This document shows positions 13,693 to 49,975 of a stretch of 64,000 bases of DNA, piece by piece. The notes below the pieces were generated by a model. That model saw nothing but the letters and a program-made list of their open reading frames with translations, did no database searches and had not been told where the DNA came from. A program made the translations under genes and the position numbers. Origin of the DNA: Scleroderma bovista (Eukaryota; Basidiomycota; Agaricomycetes; Boletales; Sclerodermataceae); NCBI GenBank assembly GCA_037178675.1, contig JAYMGJ010000418.1:1-64000 (forward strand). Reading direction: 5' to 3'. The stretch's first letter is position 1. The number at the start of each line of letters is the position of its first letter.

Positions 13693-16030
13693 ATGGCTGA
13701 CGAGCGGACTAATACTACTAAACCTCCAGCTACGCCTACTCCCATCGCACTGCACACCATCCCTTGTTCGCATGACACAGTAAGCGCCCGTACAGAGGCC
13801 CTGCTCCGCAGAAGAGTAGCGGTACTCCAAGACCTCGGCCCAATCCCTGTTGTGCCACTCGAATACTTCAACTTGGCTGGCCTGCCTCCGCTGCGCAGCG
13901 GCATTGACGTCCAGAACATCGAGCGTGCGCTGCAAGCATCTGGCCGGATCACATCGGGACAGTGGCGTGAACTTTATCCGTCGAACCCCAGCAATGGCAC
14001 CGCGAACGAGGAAGACTACTACAAGCACCTTTGCATTATCTTTAAAGCAGTTGTGACACAGGCCACGAAGGGCACCAGGACAAACCCAACGGTCGATTTC
14101 ATTTACAAGCCTAACGTGTCTGCACGGACGCACACCTCCAACCCTGATGGTTACTTGCGATTGACAGAGGGAAAGAGTGTCCGACTCCCTGGAACTGAAT
14201 CTCGGGATTCTTGGGACGATGTCGCGGTTTCGTTTGAATTCAACAAGTATGATAATAACAAGGATGTAAGTTGGACGTCACTTCGAGGCGCACAATGTGA
14301 CTGATATGTGGGAAGAATGAGCGGAAATTGATCTGGAGCCTTCATCACATTATGCGCAGTGACCCTTGCAGACGTTCTACGCTTGGTGTAACGATTGGGG
14401 GTGCCAACATGAGATTGTGGTTCACTTGTCGGTCGGTGACAATGGTGTCCGAGCCCTTCGATTTTATCAAGGTCAGTTTACCGCCGTTGTTATCGATCAC
14501 AGACATACTGAGCATGCATGACCAGGCTACCTCTCAGCTCATTCATTTTTTTTGTGCGGTGGCATTTGCCGACGATCATCAACTCGGTTGGGATCCGACC
14601 ATCGGGCGGATACTTGTTAACGACCGTGTGCAGTATGAGATCACTCTGAATCCTCCTGATGGACCGTCTACTACATATGTAACTACCAACATCATTGCGG
14701 ACTTCGGAGCAGAACCCATGGAGGGCAGAGGCACTCGAGTCTTCCAAGGATATCGCAAAGGAGATCCCGACAAGATACCAGTAGTCATCAAGGACACGTG
14801 GAGAGCCTTCGATTGCAAGAAGGAAGATGTCATTCTCAAAGAAATCTATACTGACATGGTAAAGGTGATGGGCGAGGCCGAGGCGAAAGATACTCAGAAG
14901 CATTTTCTTACTGTCCTTGATGCCGACGACGTAGTGATTGAGGGGAACCTGGACGATACCCTCTGTCTTTTGCATGGAAACAATCCTCCATCCAAATGCA
15001 AAACGTATGAAATACCTCTTGAAGAACATTCGAACGCAGACGAGCTTCCAAGCGAGACTACGCTGACTCACACAGTTGCTGACTTCAAAGTTTCCCATAA
15101 GGTTCATACACGCATCGTGTTCAAAGAAGTTTGCGAGACACTATATTCGGTTCGCGATCTCCGTGGTGTCATGCAAATGTTACTGGATGTGCTCAAAGGT
15201 GTGAACACGAGGTCGTCACGACGCTTTGTCCATCTAACCAGTTGATAGTACTTCAATTATTGCACAGAAGCGGGTGGCTTCACCGGGACATTAGTCCCGG
15301 CAATCTCATGCGAATAGGGGGATCGGTGAAGCTTGCTGACCTAGAGTATGCGAAACGACTAGATTCCGATAAGACCCATGACTTTCGTACGGTGAGTTTT
15401 ACTACTTGCTTGATGGCAGTGCTGGTAGTAACAATTGTATAGGGTACTCACCACTTCATGGCCTGCGAAGTGGAAGCGCACAGGTACCTCTTCCATTTGA
15501 AGCAATCGGGCAACAATGCAGATCTTGATATGGAAAACTTTTCAAGTGAACCTGCGAAACCGCCATTCGCATATAACCCTGTCCACGACCTTGAGTCATT
15601 GTGGTGGATCTGGGTCTGGGTCATGTACTTCTATGTCGATAAGGATGGAATGACGCATTCCCCCGAACAAGCGAAAGCTTTCCGATTGCTGTTTCCCGAT
15701 TACATACCCGCGGAGCGCGTGCGGCACTTTTTAGCCTCCCTGCGAGCGGATGTTTCCCCGGCTTTCCAGCACCGAATCGACGGCATTGAACTGATTCGTC
15801 GGAACTTGGAAATAACATATTTCAACATGGAAAGATCACTGCCCCCGGATTACGCACTTTTCCTTCCACGCCTCACGGGTTATTTTCTCAGAGTGCTACA
15901 AATCGCTGTGGACCGTACTGGGGATATCAAACTTTATATTCCTGTTGAACACCCCAAACGCAAGGAGCCTGAATGCGAAGAGGGAAACCTATTTTCATCC
16001 ACCTCAATTAAGCGAAACAAGCAGGGATGA
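13693..16030 (+). CDS. FunK1-type fungal protein kinase, copy 1 (710 aa)
   Basis: Exons 13693..14265, 14316..14471, 14526..15198, 15249..15391 and 15443..16030 give one frame of 710 codons. The N-terminal region ends in DDVAVSFEFNKY. The kinase core has RVFQGYRKGD and VVIKDTW (probable VAIK lysine), the catalytic loop HRDISPGNLM, and LADLEYAKRL where most kinases have DFG. It ends with the FunK1 block HDLESLWWIWVWVMYF. FunK1 (Pkinase_fungal) is expanded in Agaricomycetes; its substrates are unknown. The C-terminus is basic (KRKEP, IKRNKQG). All splice phases agree with copy 2. Confidence 0.9.
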
Positions 16031-17903: not shown

Positions 17904-20268
17904 ATGACCGACAAGCAGACTAACACCACGCCACCTCGAACTACTCCCTCGTCCATCGCACCGGACACCGTCCCTCGTTCGCGCCACACAGGCACGCCCT
18001 CTTATCGTACAGGGGATCTGCTCCGCGGCAGAGTAGCAGTACTCAAAGACCTCGGCCCAATCCCTGTTGTACCACTCAAGTACTTCAACTCGGCCGTCCT
18101 GCCTCCGCTACGCAACGACATCGACGTCCAGAAGATCGAGCGTGCGCTGCAAGCATCCGGGAAAATAACATCGGGGCAGTGGCGTGAATATCAGTCGAAC
18201 CCCAGCAATGGCTCCGCGAACGAGGAAGACTACAACAAGCACCTTTGCAGTATCTTTGAAGCAGTTACGAAGCAAGTCAAGAAGGGCACTGGGACAGGCA
18301 CAACGGTCGATTTCATCCAGAAGCCTAATTCAGCACCCATGTCTGAGCGGGCGAACAGCTCCAGACCAGATGGTTACATGCTATTGAAAAAGAAAAAGAG
18401 TGTCAAATCCGGAACCGACTCTCGAGATTTTTGGGACGATGTCGCGGTTTCGTTCGAATTCAAGAAGTATGGTAAAGACAACGACAAACAGGATGTAAGT
18501 TTGATGCCACTTCTAGGCGCACAATGTGACTGATATGAGGAAAGAGTGAGCGCAAGTTCATCTGGAGCCTTCATCATATCATGCGCAGTGACCCTTGCAG
18601 ACGTTCTACGCTTGGCGTAACGATCGAGGGCGCAAACATGAGGTTGTGGTTCACTTGTCGGTCGGTGACAATGGTGTCCGAGCCCTTCGACTTTATAAAA
18701 GTCAGTTTACCGCCGTTGTTATCGATCGCAGACATACTCAGCGTGCATGAGCAGGATACCTCTCAGCTCATTTACTTTTTTTGCTCGGTGGCATTTGCCG
18801 ACGATCACGAATTCGGTTGGGATCCATCTATCCTGCGGATCCTTGTTGATGGCCATGCGCAGTACGAGATTACTCTGAATTCTGCTAATGGATCGTCTGT
18901 ATATGTAACTACTGACACCCTTGCGGATTTCGGAGCGGAAGCTATGAGGGGCAGGGGCACTCGAGTCTTCAAAGGATATTGCAAAGGAGATCCCAACAAT
19001 ACGCCGGTAGCCATCAAGGACACGTGGAGAGCCAGCGATCGCGAAAGGGAAGATGTCACTCTTAATGAAATTTTTGCCAACATGGCAAAGGTGATGGATA
19101 AGGCCGAGGTGGAAGATGCTCAGAAGCATTTTCTCACTGTTCGTGATGCCGGCGACGTAGTGATCAAGGGGAAGGTGGACGATACCCTCTGTCTATTGCG
19201 TGGCGAAAATCCCCCGTCCGACTGCAAAATGTATGAGATACTTCCCGAAGAACCTCCAAGCATAGACAAGCTTTCAAAAGGGACTGCGATGCCTCACACG
19301 ACGGTGCCCCCAGTTTCCGACTTCAAAGTCTCTAGGGTTCATATACGCATCGTGTTCAAAGAAGTGTGCGAGACATTATATGCGGTTCGCGATCTCCGTG
19401 GTGTCATGCAAATGTTACTGGATGTGCTCAAAGGTGTGAACGCGAGGTAGTCACGACGCGTTGTCCATCTAACCTGTTCATAGTACTTCAGTTATTGCAC
19501 AAAAGTGGTTGGGTTCACCGGGACATTAGTCCCGGCAATCTCATGCGAATAGGGGGATCGGTGAAGCTTGCTGACCTAGAGTACGCGAAACGACTGGATT
19601 CCGATAAGACCCATGACTTTCGTACGGTGAGTTTTACTATTTGCTTGATGGTAGTGCTGGTAGTAACAATTGTACAGGGTACTCACCACTTCATGGCATG
19701 CGAAGTGGAAGCGCATGACTACGTCTTACGCTTGAAGAAAAGGACACTTTACGATCCAGAAGTTGATCTGCAAATTTTTTCAAGTGGACCTCCGACACCT
19801 CCATTCACATTTAACCCTATCCACGACCTCGAATCATTGTGGTGGATCTGGGTCTGGGTCATGTACTTCTATGTTGATAAGGATGGAATGACGCGTTCCC
19901 CCGAACAAGCGAAAGCCTTTCGATTGCTGTTCCCCGATTACATACCCGCAGAGCGTGTGCGGCATTTTATAGCCTCCCTTCGAGCGGACGTTCCCCCGGC
20001 TTTCTGGGACGTAATCCGCTGTACTGAATTAGTGCGTCAGCGGTTGGTAGATACATATTTCGACATGGAAATATCACTACCCCTCGATTTCGCACCGTTC
20101 CTTCCGGAACTCATGGATTATTTTCTCGGATCACTACAACTCGCTGTGGATCGCGCTGGGGATATCAAACTTTATATTCCTGTTGAACACCGCAAACGCA
20201 AGGAGCCTGAACGCGAAGAGGGAAACCTGTTGTCATCCACCTCAAATAAGCGAAACAAGCAGGGATGA
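17904..20268 (+). CDS. FunK1-type fungal protein kinase, copy 2 (719 aa)
   Basis: Exons 17904..18494, 18545..18700, 18755..19433, 19484..19626 and 19678..20268 give 719 codons with the same intron positions and phases as copy 1. Key motifs are kept: VAIKDTW, HRDISPGNLM, LADLEYAKRL, HDLESLWWIWVWVMYF. Differences cluster in the N-terminal linker, the stretch after ACEVEAH and the last 150 residues; the HRD exon is nearly identical. That contrast suggests uneven constraint or gene conversion between the copies. No lesions were seen, so both copies look functional. Confidence 0.9.
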
Positions 20269-43144: not shown

Positions 43145-44266
43145 AAGTTGGGATGTGGCCCGTGCGAGTAACCGGCCCTAAAGTGCAGAGACTTGATATA
43201 ACCCCACGCTTTGTTCCCTTTTTTCTTTGGGAAACCCCTTCGGTGGCGTGATGGTGAGCTGCATTTGGTGACCTCGTACATTAATTATCCCTAAAGCTTA
43301 CCTTCCAAGCCGGCCGTTGTTGTGCTTCATCGCGTGGTGGACGCGGTTAGTATTTATATGTCTTGAGGCACGAATTGCTAACGCCTCTTCTTCTACAGCT
43401 GCGCTGTGTTGTGTGTACCTTTGACCTGGCGATTGAGATCGAACGTTGACCTTAGCCATTCCTAGGCGTTTGTTGGTATCGTAGGCGTTGACCTCGGTGA
43501 CCATTTTGGTAGGCTTCCCTGATACATCTTTGTGGTCATCGTTCAACTCGTACCAGGTACTTGGACGGCGTTGTGTGAGGCCGAGACTCTGGTTTCGCAA
43601 TACCAGGTGTTGTATTAGCGAAGAGCATGGATCACCACCTGTCGCGAGTCGTTTTGATTACCCCTTGAATTTGATGGAGTCTCAGTCTGCAATGGCGAGT
43701 ACCCTTGGACATGAGGTACTTCTGTCTCTCAGTCTACCATTCTACCTACTTACCTTGCATTTTTTCAGCAGGCGTCATCGGGTGGTAGTATGTTGAGGTG
43801 GTTCGGATACCGTGCATCTTTGGATGCTGAAGTTCTGATCGGTTCACCAAATGCTTCATGCTTTAGGTGGCCAACCAGCCCAGTTGGGTTCGGATTGAGT
43901 ATGTGTTTACCTTACCACGGCATGACACTCGCTAATATGCTTTTAGGGTTTTCCTCTGCTAGCAAGACTCCAGACTTGAGACACATAGCTGACAAGGCCC
44001 TCGTAAGAGCGTGTCGAGCCAGAGGTGCACCCTATGTTCACTTTGTGCCTGCTCGAGCTCGAGTGCTGGTATTTTTGGGGGTTGTTCCCCGGGTCTTTGG
44101 GAGTATTTCCCTGTCTTATGGGGTGTATTCCCCGTCTTTGGGGTGTTTTCCCCGTTTCTCTCAAATCAATTACCCCAGGCCATTCAAGTCTTGGAGGACA
44201 ACTGTCTTCTGAGCCTACATGTCTTTGTCAAGTAGTAGTGACGTGTAGCAATATATTTGTGTTCCT
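43145..44266 (+). repeat. R1: copy of an unidentified TATA-driven repeat or gene family
   Basis: Shares with R2 and R3 a head (GCGAGTAACCGGCCCTAAAG, a TATA-like GATATAACC, then GGGAAACCCCTTCGGTGG) and a tail (CAAATCAATTACCCCAGGCC ... GTGTAGCAATATA). The middle differs. Several splice-like CAG sites and a small tandem repeat (ATTCCCCGTCTTTGGGGTG type, about 44085-44155) lie inside. Short frames exist (e.g. SKTPDLRHIADKALVRACRA) but none is shared by all copies. The mariner element begins just beyond its tail. Confidence 0.65.
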
Positions 44267-44270
44267 TTTA

Positions 44271-44339
44271 CAGCTGTTTTCGGAAAGGTTGGCAGTCGTG
44301 TCGTGATTTTTTTGTTTACACATTGTTTGTACTCAGTAG
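44271..44339 (+). repeat. mariner terminal inverted repeat, left (69 bp)
   Basis: Identical, base for base, to the reverse complement of 47170-47238, including a T7 run. Confidence 0.95.
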
Positions 44340-44354
44340 AAATTCGTACTGTGA

Positions 44355-45946
44355 ATGGATTCATACGCTGGGATGGATCCAACAACTTCGCGGGTTCTGC
44401 AGGTCCTAGACTTACCTCAACTTATGCTCGAAGAAGATGACTATGCCTCTGACAGTGATCACGATCTTACTCTCAATGGTTCAGCTATCACATATGATGG
44501 CAGCCGAGCTGACCCTGAAGATGACGACACGACACTCAACCCTGATGACGATGAGCTAGACTTGCCAAACCCCCTTCAGAGCAAGCCTCCAACCCCCACA
44601 CCCCCTCCGATTGTTGGCAAGAAGCGCAAACGAGGTAAGCTAGCGCATATATTGTGTCTGAACAGCCATGACCACTTTGTACATAATCGTACTTCATAGG
44701 CAAGGAAAACACGACCCCAGAGGAGCCCAAAGGTCCAAAGGAGGTCTCATACCTTGTGTCTATCTTCTCTGCAGCTGAGATGAAGAAGGCAAAGAGCAAA
44801 CGAGAGCCAATGAACGAGTCTATTGACCTCTCGATCGAGGTGCCCTGGGACACCCTCAAGGCACAGGTTCTCGCCAAAATTGTGAAGACCCTGAAGCCAG
44901 AACTCATCAAATTCGAGGACTATACCATGACGTACTATATCAGCCGTATTCTCCCCAAACCTGGCCTATCTCTTGCTGTCCAAGAAGACTTTGATGGGCT
45001 GATGAAGCGCGTGAAAGGAATGCCATCGAAGGTCCCGATCGTGAATATTGTTGTTGTCCAAGTCACTCAGCCACCTGTGGCTACGCAGGGACAGAAGTTG
45101 GACCCTCGGAGTGATGACGAGGCTGCTGTACCTGCCGCAAAGGGTCCAAAACGTGTATGATAGATCTTATTTACAGTCAACCTACCTGGCTTTGCACATA
45201 ACTCACATTTTTCGTAGAAGGAATCAGCTGCAGTTCTCCCTGGAAACGAGAAAAAAATCAAGAACATTCAGCTTCTCCGTGACAAGTGGACCTGTAAGAA
45301 ACCTGACTCGGCGTGTTCATCCACGCACTGTTATGTGCTGCCGGACACTGGGGAGCACTTCCCACTTGGGCACGAACACTTTGATTGTTGGGCAGCTGCA
45401 ATGGTACAAATACAGTCGTCTAATTGTTCAATTACTGACATCGTAATTGAGTCGAAGAATGACAATGACCCATCTTGTGCCACAGTGGACAAGCCACCCA
45501 ACCACCGTCTTTTCGATGCCAAGAAGTCATCACTTAGCCCCGTCCTGCAAAGGCGCCTTGACATGCAGTCCAAGGCTTCTGCCTCAACACAGGCTTCGGC
45601 ACCTGTCTTCAATTTTACGATCGGGAATGAGCTCGCCAGTCTCTTCCGCCCTCAAGTACCCCTGCCAGTTCCTCCCACAATACAATCAGTCTCTGCACCC
45701 TTCGAAGAGAATGGATTGCTCATTCCATCAGGCCGTGCCACTGGACCTGACATGCCTATCATTCGTTTTTGCCTTGCTTACCAACTTGATGACAGCATTG
45801 CCGAGAAGTTTGTGTCACACTCATTGAAAGAGGCACGTTTATTGCGGTTTGTGCAGTTTGCTGACCTGAAGGAGATGGGATTCAAGTTCGGAGAAATTGC
45901 TGCTCTTCGTGATGCTATTGAAAAATGGTCTATCCCTGCTGTCTAG
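44355..45946 (+). CDS. companion protein of the mariner element, 487 aa, SAM-like C-terminus
   Basis: Exons 44355..44634, 44700..45154 and 45218..45946 give 487 codons. Residues 1-80 are acidic (LEEDDYASDSDHD, DPEDDDTTLNPDDDELDL). KKRKRGK (about 90) looks like a nuclear signal. A folded part follows (SIEVPWDTLKAQVLAKIVKT ... KFEDYTMTYYISRILPKPG) that resembles a ubiquitin-like/PB1 fold. Next is a Cys/His cluster (WTCKKPDSACSSTHCY, EHFPLGHEHFDCW), possibly zinc-binding. The last 65 residues resemble a SAM domain (RFVQFADLKEMGFKFGEIAA, LRDAIEKW). It lies wholly inside the element and starts 15 bp from the left TIR. Function unknown; a DNA-binding or assembly partner of the transposase is my inference. 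Confidence 0.8.
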
Positions 45947-46053
45947 TAATTTCCTTGCAGTGTTCAGCTCGAGTCTCATGACTTGTAACATATCATTGTG
46001 TACTACTGCTATGTCATAATACATTGGTCCATGTCGAGTAGCAAACATTTGGC

Positions 46054-47130
46054 TCAAAAGTAACCTCCATGCATAAAGTATCCGTGTGCATCATCAGCTG
46101 TGATGATTTCACAGACCTCATAGAGATCATACATGATTGCATCCCCACGCTCCGATCCTCCATAGTATGCCTGGTTGCGACGAAGAAAATACTTGATCTT
46201 GGAGAAGGCTTCTTCAATAGGGTTGAGATCTGGTGAGTAAGGTGGAAGGAATTCAATCCGAACACCTATGGACATCAAATCAATCAGTACGAGTAAGCTA
46301 GAAAAGGCGACAAAACATACCAAAATGATCTGCGAGCTCAAGGATTTCGGGGCCATGATGAATGGATGCATTGTCCATCACGAGGACACTGAGTGGGCCA
46401 GGATACGGAGAACACTTTGGCAGCTAGAAAAAGGTGAGTAAGTCGGCCAGATACAAATAGAACAAGTGCATACAATGGTATATTCCAACCACTGAAGGAA
46501 TAACGCCTTGGTCATTGCACCCTCAATGACTGTGGCTGCTGATATGCCCTCGAGAGTGAGCAGGGCATCCATCGTGAATCGTCGGCCACGAATGAATGGT
46601 TGTTTCTTCACTGCTCGAATTCCCTTCTGGGATCGTCCATACCGCCTCCCAATTGTCCGCTCATCTTTTGAAACCTCGTCAATGAATCCAATCTCACTGG
46701 CATCATACTGAGCCATGCGAGCAATGAATTCAGCACGACGACCTTCATCACGCTCCATTGCAATACGTTTCAGCTTCTTGTAGCTCACACCAGCACGTTG
46801 GAGCTCTGCAAAGACTGTCTTGAAATGGATAGAGATGAATCGGTTGGTGCGGAGAAGGGTGACAAGTTCATCCAGGAAGTAGTCAGGATTGCTGCGAATA
46901 AGCTGAAGGAGATAATCAAGGTCCTCGCGATCAAGTTGACGAGCACGACCACGGATCCCTGTTGGGTGATTGACGACATCACCTGTCTCCCTCCAGAGCT
47001 TCAGGATGCGAAACCAGGTCCTCTTGGAGATGCTACAGCAGTCAAGGATCTCCTGCAGCCTTAGCAGTCGACGTTCATAAAGCCTGATGGCTGCGAGCTT
47101 GACATCGCGACTGATCTTTCGATATGCCAT
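46054..47130 (-). CDS. Tc1/mariner transposase (DD34E), 323 aa
   Basis: Exons 47130..46474, 46423..46321 and 46265..46054 give 323 codons. A helix-turn-helix N-terminus (MAYRKISRDVKLAAIRLYER, CCSISKRTWFRILKLW) and a second such part (DREDLDYLLQLIRSNPDYFL) precede the DDE domain. The catalytic motifs are IGFIDEVSKDERT, VLVMDNASIHHG and LPPYSPDLNPIEEAFSKIKY, with 34 residues between the second D and E. No lesions. Two introns (GTATGC...TCTAG and GTATGT...CATAG) lie in the catalytic part, uncommon for this class. The start is 40 bp inside the right TIR. Confidence 0.93.
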
Positions 47131-47169
47131 GTATTAGCTAGTAGGGAACTTCGGACTCGGAGGTGCTGA

Positions 47170-47238
47170 CTACTGAGTACAAACAATGTGTAAACAAAAA
47201 AATCACGACACGACTGCCAACCTTTCCGAAAACAGCTG
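47170..47238 (-). repeat. mariner terminal inverted repeat, right (69 bp)
   Basis: Inverted copy of 44271-44339, followed by TA. Confidence 0.95.
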
Positions 47239-47329
47239 TAAACCGGCTTTCTTCCTGAGCTATGCACTGCATCCACTCCACTCCTGTGGTTAAATGACAT
47301 GCTTTGCTGGGTGTTTTAATCATTGCAGT

Positions 47330-48205
47330 CCATGTGACCCTGCGAGTGACCAGCCCTAAAGGTGACCTTGCCTATATAAGCTCACTGTTAACACGCCGCT
47401 TAGCCTTGGGGAACCCCTTCAGTGGGCTGACGGCGGTGCGCGTCAACTGTGCTGACCGATTCATCTTGTTCTAATTCTTGTTTTCAGAGCCGACTGATGC
47501 TGAAGATTGATACATGCCTGCTGAAACATGTATGTACCTGCAACCTGATTCTAAACATCGAGCATTGTCCTTAGATCTTTTTCCAGGCGGCATGTTTGGA
47601 CACTGGTGTTGTTGGTGGTGCCGGCGCCAACGCCCAGCAACAGTTGGTCTAACTTGGCTTGCCTGTGGCGACCGCTCATGTATTCGCAGAATCGAATCCA
47701 AATACGTGGGACCTGGCTTCTGTACCGCCATCGTTGCCATTGGTGGTGCCTAGGCTGAGTTTCTCGTGTCTGGAAGGGAAAATATGAAACATACTTGAAC
47801 AAACTTGAAACACAGACCGATGCAAATGAGCTTGACAGTGGCAACCAGTCGGGTGATTTGCATCATAATACATCATGACCAACTACGAATGCGAACCGAG
47901 TGTTTAACAGGATGGCCAAATCAGCTTTGTCTGGTATTGGAGCCAGTATGTATTTTTACCCATGTGTGGGCCCTCGCTCATCTTTCCCTAGTACCTTTTG
48001 CACTAGCAACTGAAGCAACCGAAACATCGCAGAACTTACAAATAGCCGAGCCCTGTGCTCAATCTTGAATCACATTTGGGGTGCCCCCCCTTCCTTTCAA
48101 ATCAATTAACCCAGGCCACCCAAGTCTCGGAGAATGTGCAGTCCTCTGAGCCTACATGTCCTTTGTCAAGTAGTGATGTGTAGCAATATACATTTGTGTT
48201 CTCAA
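47330..48205 (+). repeat. R2: second copy of the TATA-driven repeat or gene family
   Basis: Head: GCGAGTGACCAGCCCTAAAG, then CTATATAAGC, then CTTGGGGAACCCCTTC and GGGCTGACGG. Tail: CAAATCAATTAACCCAGGCC ... TGTAGCAATATA. GGGGAACCCC could fold as a hairpin. A 79-codon frame (47514-47753) contains FCTAIVAIGGA, which has a partner, FCAAIVAIGIA, in R3 (about 49661) but not in R1. Confidence 0.65.
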
Positions 48206-49154: not shown

Positions 49155-49975
49155 TCTGACCATGTGACTGCGGGTGACCAGCCCTAAGGTACTGGCTTAT
49201 CTATAAAACCCTATCATTTGCACAGTACTTTCCCTTGGGGCACCCCTTCGGTGGGCTGACGGTGGGCTTCGTCTGTACTAACCTTTGATTCATTGGTTCT
49301 AACTATCGTCTTCACAGCCGACCGTTGTTGAATTTTGGCATGATCACGCTCCCGGGACGGTGAGCACCCCGTAGTTGTCGAGCTCAATCGTGTACAGTTC
49401 GCTAACGCCCTGCGTATATAGTGATCGATATAGTGATAACTCATGCTCGCTAACAGGTATGTGCCCGAAACCCGATCCTAAACATTGGCCACTGGTCTAA
49501 GACGTGTCGCTAGGCGGCGATTAGGATTTATGTTCGTACCTATGGTATGGACTGAAAAACTCGGCACCAATGGCTGTCAGTTTCTTTTTATTGATTTGGC
49601 TTGGTGTCGCGCGCTTATTGTGCACTCGCAGGAGAAATTTATGTTCAACTGACCTAGCTTCTGTGCCGCCATTGTTGCCATTGGCATTGCGCAGTCTGGG
49701 TCTGAAGCAAGTTTTTCCCCTTCGGGGGTCTTCAATGCGTTTAGCCTTGGCAGTGGCAACCAGTTCAGGCGATCCGTATCATATCTGAAGAATGTCGTGC
49801 TGGTCCCCCACAGGAAACTGTTATTTGATCTGGTTCTTGTCCAGCAAGACCAGAGTTGATTTGGGTTCCCCCATTTTTGGCAAATTAATTACCCCAGGCC
49901 ATTGAAGTGTCAATGCTTTTGCGTACATATCTGTTGTCAAGTAGTGAGGTGTAGCAATATGCATTGATGATGTCG
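49155..49975 (+). repeat. R3: third copy of the TATA-driven repeat or gene family
   Basis: Head: TGTGACTGCGGGTGACCAGC, CCTAAGG, TCTATAAAACC, then CTTGGGGCACCCCTTCGGTG. Tail: CAAATTAATTACCCCAGGCC ... GTGTAGCAATATG. The TGTGACTG is the exact reverse of the HomolD box (CAGTCACA) known from fission yeast ribosomal-protein promoters. A CAGCCGACCGTTGTTG acceptor-like block matches R1. Confidence 0.65.

Follow-up and report, generated by a model that had tools for sequence, protein, structure and literature searches.

The window analysed here is a stretch of 64,000 nucleotides from the basidiomycete Scleroderma bovista (contig JAYMGJ010000418.1, positions 1 to 64,000), and at 44271-47238 it holds a 2968-bp element in which two convergent genes, one for a transposase and one for a protein that we call the companion, lie between terminal inverted repeats (TIRs). 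As an earlier note made from the sequence alone had stated, the TIRs are identical at every one of their 69 positions and are flanked by a duplicated TA (Table 1). The inverted identity of the ends extends to 73 because the flanks read TTTA and TAAA, and with TA on both sides the target is therefore TTAA. Introns of GT..AG type were predicted from the sequence, three in the companion gene (44635-44699, 45155-45217 and 45404-45451) and two in the transposase gene (46473-46424 and 46320-46266), and both genes are open after their removal; the third companion intron, 48 bp long and in frame, was recognised because homologues in the alignment lack those residues. The stop codons stand 107 bp apart. 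The note's description of two intact convergent genes holds, as does the companion start codon 15 bp inside its TIR, whereas the transposase start codon lies 39 bp inside and not the 40 bp given there. Across eight measured genes the distance from TIR to start is 15-81 bp, including six transposases of other copies in which the match to the first residue starts 18-81 bp inside the TIR. Given these short distances, the TIRs are likely to act as promoters of both genes.

Table 1. Features of the two-gene element in the window.
Feature	Position	Strand	Remarks
Left TA of target-site duplication	44269-44270		target reads TTAA
Left TIR, 69 bp	44271-44339	+	69/69 identical to right TIR
Companion gene, 471 aa	44355-45946	+	predicted exons 44355-44634, 44700-45154, 45218-45403, 45452-45946; open in 3/3 complete copies; has homologues
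Transposase gene, 323 aa	46054-47130	-	predicted exons 47130-46474, 46423-46321, 46265-46054; DDE_3; open in 3/3 complete copies
Right TIR, 69 bp	47170-47238	-	69/69 identical to left TIR
Right TA of target-site duplication	47239-47240		second TA of the duplication

The transposase matches the Pfam family DDE_3 with 91.7 bits against a cut-off of 28.6, its catalytic residues are D151, D236 and E271, and 34 residues separate the last two. On the DDE_3 domain, a D/E spacing within DD34-39, and a TA duplication together with TIRs (present in all 16 elements whose two ends were read), we assign it to Tc1/mariner, as a DD34E transposase by its sequence. At E <= 1 the only Pfam families matched were DDE_3, HTH_23, HTH_33, HTH_32 and DDE_1; no Harbinger-type transposase domain is among them, which rules out membership of PIF/Harbinger.

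In the genome from which the window comes (G000; 51.8 Mb in 850 contigs) the element has three complete copies, all with both genes open; relative to the window copy, the second and third show 3 and 7 base differences. Such near-identical copies fit the recent movement that the note had proposed. The window element is not a chance arrangement, because the whole 2968-bp unit recurs at two further places, and the presence of companion homologues in other genera likewise rules out a chance open reading frame (ORF). Damaged copies of the family also occur. One is partial and matches nt 1-2430 only (C373). Another (C590:22596-31904; L004, L076) is interrupted by about 6.3 kb, with parts that overlap by 5 bp (nt 152-156), the pattern expected of a later insertion that duplicated 5 bp. 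In a third (C595:65185-66582 and 85137-86698; L006, L007) the halves are opposite in orientation, about 20 kb apart and overlap by 8 bp, as after an inversion with a breakpoint inside the element or an assembly error. Finally, C546 carries a 1068-bp internal-deletion derivative, in which nt 1-587 are joined to 2488-2968, with both ends and a TTAA site of its own.

Genome-wide searches gave companion and transposase loci in numbers that are all lower bounds; 37 companion loci were kept as substantial and 15 shorter fragments were counted apart, and the companions form four groups. At 34 of the 37 substantial loci a transposase match lies convergent with the companion across a gap of 46-633 bp, for which the chance expectation is about 0.003 per locus. 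The three unpaired loci are the split C595 copy, C476 and C32, the last two being judged by transposase search matches alone with the sequence around them unread. Three of the 15 fragments adjoin a transposase match and 12 do not, and 37 of 53 transposase loci have a companion or fragment adjoining. Fifteen full-length elements (2836-3263 bp) were read to both ends and every one holds the companion, in a sample that is not blind: 7 or 8 loci entered through companion matches or copies of the window element, and C354, C191, C60, C777, C535, C19 and C15 were fetched through transposase matches. These counts support the earlier proposal of a binary element built like Harbinger but belonging to Tc1/mariner. 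Within this genome the proposal also withstands the note's own refuting conditions: with the same reservation about sampling, no full-length copy read to both ends lacks the companion, and the substantial companion loci do not lie mostly apart from such elements.

The best reading of the 34 paired loci is a deep two-gene branch of Tc1/mariner in Agaricomycetes, rather than one element, as judged from sequence. Two caveats apply. Extra ORFs in Tc1/mariner are already known from ciliates, and 16 of the 53 transposase loci have no adjoining companion match. Among these 16, C722 and C504 lie at contig ends, C353 showed no companion as far as it could be read, which was to the contig end, and C743 and C151, when read, showed none or a 24-residue trace. 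The other 11 (C631:318, C699, C271, C458, C345, C673, C475, two on C529 and two on C498) are unread, so that solo forms may be among them. A DDE_3 search of the genome gave 94 matches, not sorted into families, with the single-gene element C64 and C331, C125, C466 and C487 among those unrelated.

Seven near-identical occurrences of a group-2 companion's N-terminal part, in broken form, were also noted (C1, C12, C181, C193, C489, C546; for example C1:159506-160331, L087), with no transposase match adjoining. The C1 occurrence sits in a composite repeat and is not a simple deletion derivative.

Comparison of the companion groups suggests that the pairing is old. The profiles of groups 1 and 2 can be aligned over 304 columns with an HHalign probability of 94.8% (E 5e-8). 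For group 4 (C15, C19) the match to group 1 is weak (10%, E 0.003) but collinear, and there is hardly a match to group 2 (0.7%, E 0.08), so that the kinship of the group-4 companion rests partly on position and layout. For 13 families the transposase and companion trees have 9 of 10 splits in common, against at most 4 in 5000 label shuffles, and the single discordant split involves C684, which is represented by a short transposase piece of 137 aa. Distances in the two proteins correlate at 0.87, a value reached by none of 20000 permutations, and at 0.79 within the six group-1 families (84 of 20000 permutations). The companion alignments were built from joined pieces, which makes deep branch lengths rough, and some supports in the transposase tree are low, for example 0.32 for C256 and C426. 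The matching trees suggest that transposase and companion have evolved together for long and that movement likely requires both.

The companion has an acidic N-terminus, then the basic stretch KKRKRGK, then predicted PB1 and SAM-like domains. A version of 487 aa, with the third intron read through, matched no Pfam family at E <= 1, and the companion profile matched no sequence in the PDB. A structure model of a Suillus homologue has a predicted PB1 beta-grasp fold and probably also a fold like the five-helix SAM domain. Foldseek gave no match at E <= 0.001. The AlphaFold model of a group-2 companion is poor (mean pLDDT, the predicted local distance difference test, 39.8), and basic runs are present in group 2 too. 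It is the folded region from the predicted PB1 to the SAM-like domain that is conserved.

Companion homologues are not confined to this genome. The search lists 39, from a scored set of the 7994 candidates with most words in common, and their named sources are Suillus, Scleroderma, Melanogaster, Paxillus, Hygrophoropsis, Tricholomella, Flammula, Rhizopogon, Pisolithus, Pholiota, Phlegmacium and Mycena. Among those listed, a Scleroderma yunnanense protein has the highest identity (65% over 80%) and one from Suillus tomentosus the best E-value, which makes a host of the Boletales likely; for group 2, six are listed, with Pisolithus and Scleroderma as named sources. The transposase search was taken as the best 120 of 2490 matches. 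In Flammula alnicola a companion and a transposase (P0012/P0091) carry the consecutive locus tags 1755027/1755026 and lie on contigs equal in size (490114), and two further pairs among the matches listed lie on equal-sized contigs (P0037/P0074, 8807; P0030/P0161, 3787). Equal contig size is an indirect sign of pairing, and the Flammula pair is the strongest of the three. In Suillus fuscotomentosus (P0009, 648 aa) a companion homologue shares one gene model with DUF6830 (PF20722), which may be a fusion or a merged gene model.

All 16 two-gene elements with both ends read (the 15 full-length ones and the 1068-bp derivative) are flanked by a TA duplication, and all 16 sit in TTAA, as at window positions 44266-44270 and 47239-47242, against a background of 103 TTAA among 3029 TA sites in the window. 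The duplication itself is only TA. By comparison, C64, an ordinary single-gene Tc1 element of the same genome, is 1615 bp long and has a single 351-codon frame; its TIRs agree at 211 of 225 bp, a TA duplication flanks it, and its site is not TTAA. The two-gene elements are therefore like Tc1-like DD34E elements in having DDE_3 with DD34E spacing, a TA duplication and TIRs beginning CAG, but differ in the second gene of every full-length copy read, in the TTAA preference of 16 of 16, and in a length of about 3 kb against 1615 bp for C64.

The data show directly that both genes recur as a single unit inside the same TIRs, and that at least 13 families of this genome hold related pairs whose trees agree. 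Our leading hypothesis, with a probability of roughly 55%, is that the window holds a complete Tc1/mariner transposon with two genes, one of three nearly identical copies, and that the companion, for which PB1 and SAM-like domains are predicted, likely serves the transposase as a multimerising partner. The companion would enter the nucleus through its basic stretch, self-assemble through PB1 and SAM, and assist either the pairing of transposase molecules that sit at the two ends or their engagement of TTAA targets; both mRNAs would start within or just outside the identical TIRs, which could keep the two proteins in balance. We infer that the companion would be needed for movement. A wider and more tentative proposal is that an ancient, diversified binary branch of Tc1/mariner exists in mushrooms, whose transposition requires a PB1-SAM scaffold that polymerises on transposase-bound TIRs and narrows the choice of target from TA to TTAA. 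If true, this would be an obligate two-protein transpososome in a superfamily that serves as the model for transposition by a single protein.

A clearly less probable alternative is that the element retains the companion for an action on the host, countering silencing or controlling transcription from the TIRs, with no part in the DNA reaction. PB1- and SAM-type interaction domains also occur in signalling and chromatin proteins, and co-divergence with the transposase would follow from physical linkage alone; however, Pfam shows no domain known to work in silencing or chromatin, and host action does not by itself explain the shared TTAA preference, although the transposase alone could set it. 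It is improbable that the companion serves chiefly to localise or stabilise the transposase, by nuclear import or protection, and plays no role in the end complex: the KKRKRGK stretch and the basic runs of group 2 would suit such a factor, but the conserved PB1-to-SAM region exceeds the needs of an import signal. Some transposons do carry captured host genes, but that the companion is such a passenger is rejected on the position of 34 of 37 substantial loci inside such elements and on the matching trees, and the companion searches of the genome revealed no clear free-standing host gene, C476 and C32 being unread.

The note's premise that Tc1/mariner elements normally carry a transposase only does not extend to ciliates, where elements with extra ORFs are described (TBE, Tec, Sardine, Thon, Anchois, Tennessee; PMC7325037, PMC12242761, PMC3464196). 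In these accounts TBE has three ORFs, reported to be under purifying selection, one of which encodes a zinc-finger/kinase protein, Tec and Sardine carry a recombinase, and Anchois has two hypothetical ORFs; the 2025 Oxytricha TBE paper (PMC12242761) calls accessory proteins surprising for Tc1/mariner. The likeness is a transposase of the IS630-Tc1 group with an additional ORF. However, the ciliate elements have three or four ORFs against two genes here, TBEs are flanked by ANT rather than TA, the hosts are ciliates rather than a fungus, and the partner proteins are of zinc-finger/kinase or tyrosine recombinase type or are unknown, from which the companion is set apart by their descriptions and by Pfam. 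The TBE/Tec pattern of at least three ORFs with a recombinase or zinc-finger/kinase partner is not what we find, since the window element has two genes and its companion no such Pfam domain.

Binary builds are usual among PHIS elements (PIF/Harbinger, ISL2EU, Pangu, Nuwa), with a transposase and a second ORF between TIRs, and the role of the extra ORFs is given as still unknown (PMC4482050). They share this build with the window element but differ in transposase family and duplications, and their second protein has Myb/SANT or YqaJ, or no known motif; among 30 companion homologues at E <= 0.1 we found no Myb/SANT or YqaJ Pfam domain. MarorTcMar-18 of Marasmius oreades, a mariner family whose element measures 3,972 bp and of which a 1,120-bp derivative has newly inserted (PMC9674265), resembles the window element in sizes and mushroom host, by a comparison of size only. 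The open-licence literature, searched partly with narrow terms and with repeat databases excluded, yielded no fungal binary Tc1/mariner element and no PB1-SAM transposon partner, and we file the window element as Tc1/mariner with an unusual second gene, its novelty not proved. Since Tc1/mariner is widely treated as needing the transposase alone, a fungal second gene across 13 families of one genome makes the question of accessory proteins testable, with two forms to work on: the intact element, which was copied recently, and the 1068-bp derivative that arose naturally by deletion.

Elsewhere in the window, two similar long ORFs lie at 14328-15245 and 18581-20268, and a following frame has the kinase-like motif HRDISPGN, reminiscent of fungal FunK1-type kinases. 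A search for an empty site with the joined flanks of the transposon returned nothing beyond the window locus itself and two places that repeat part of the left flank. This flank (44160-44265) is a local repeat with downstream partners at 48097-48201 and 49881-49960, which are 83% and 77% identical to it.
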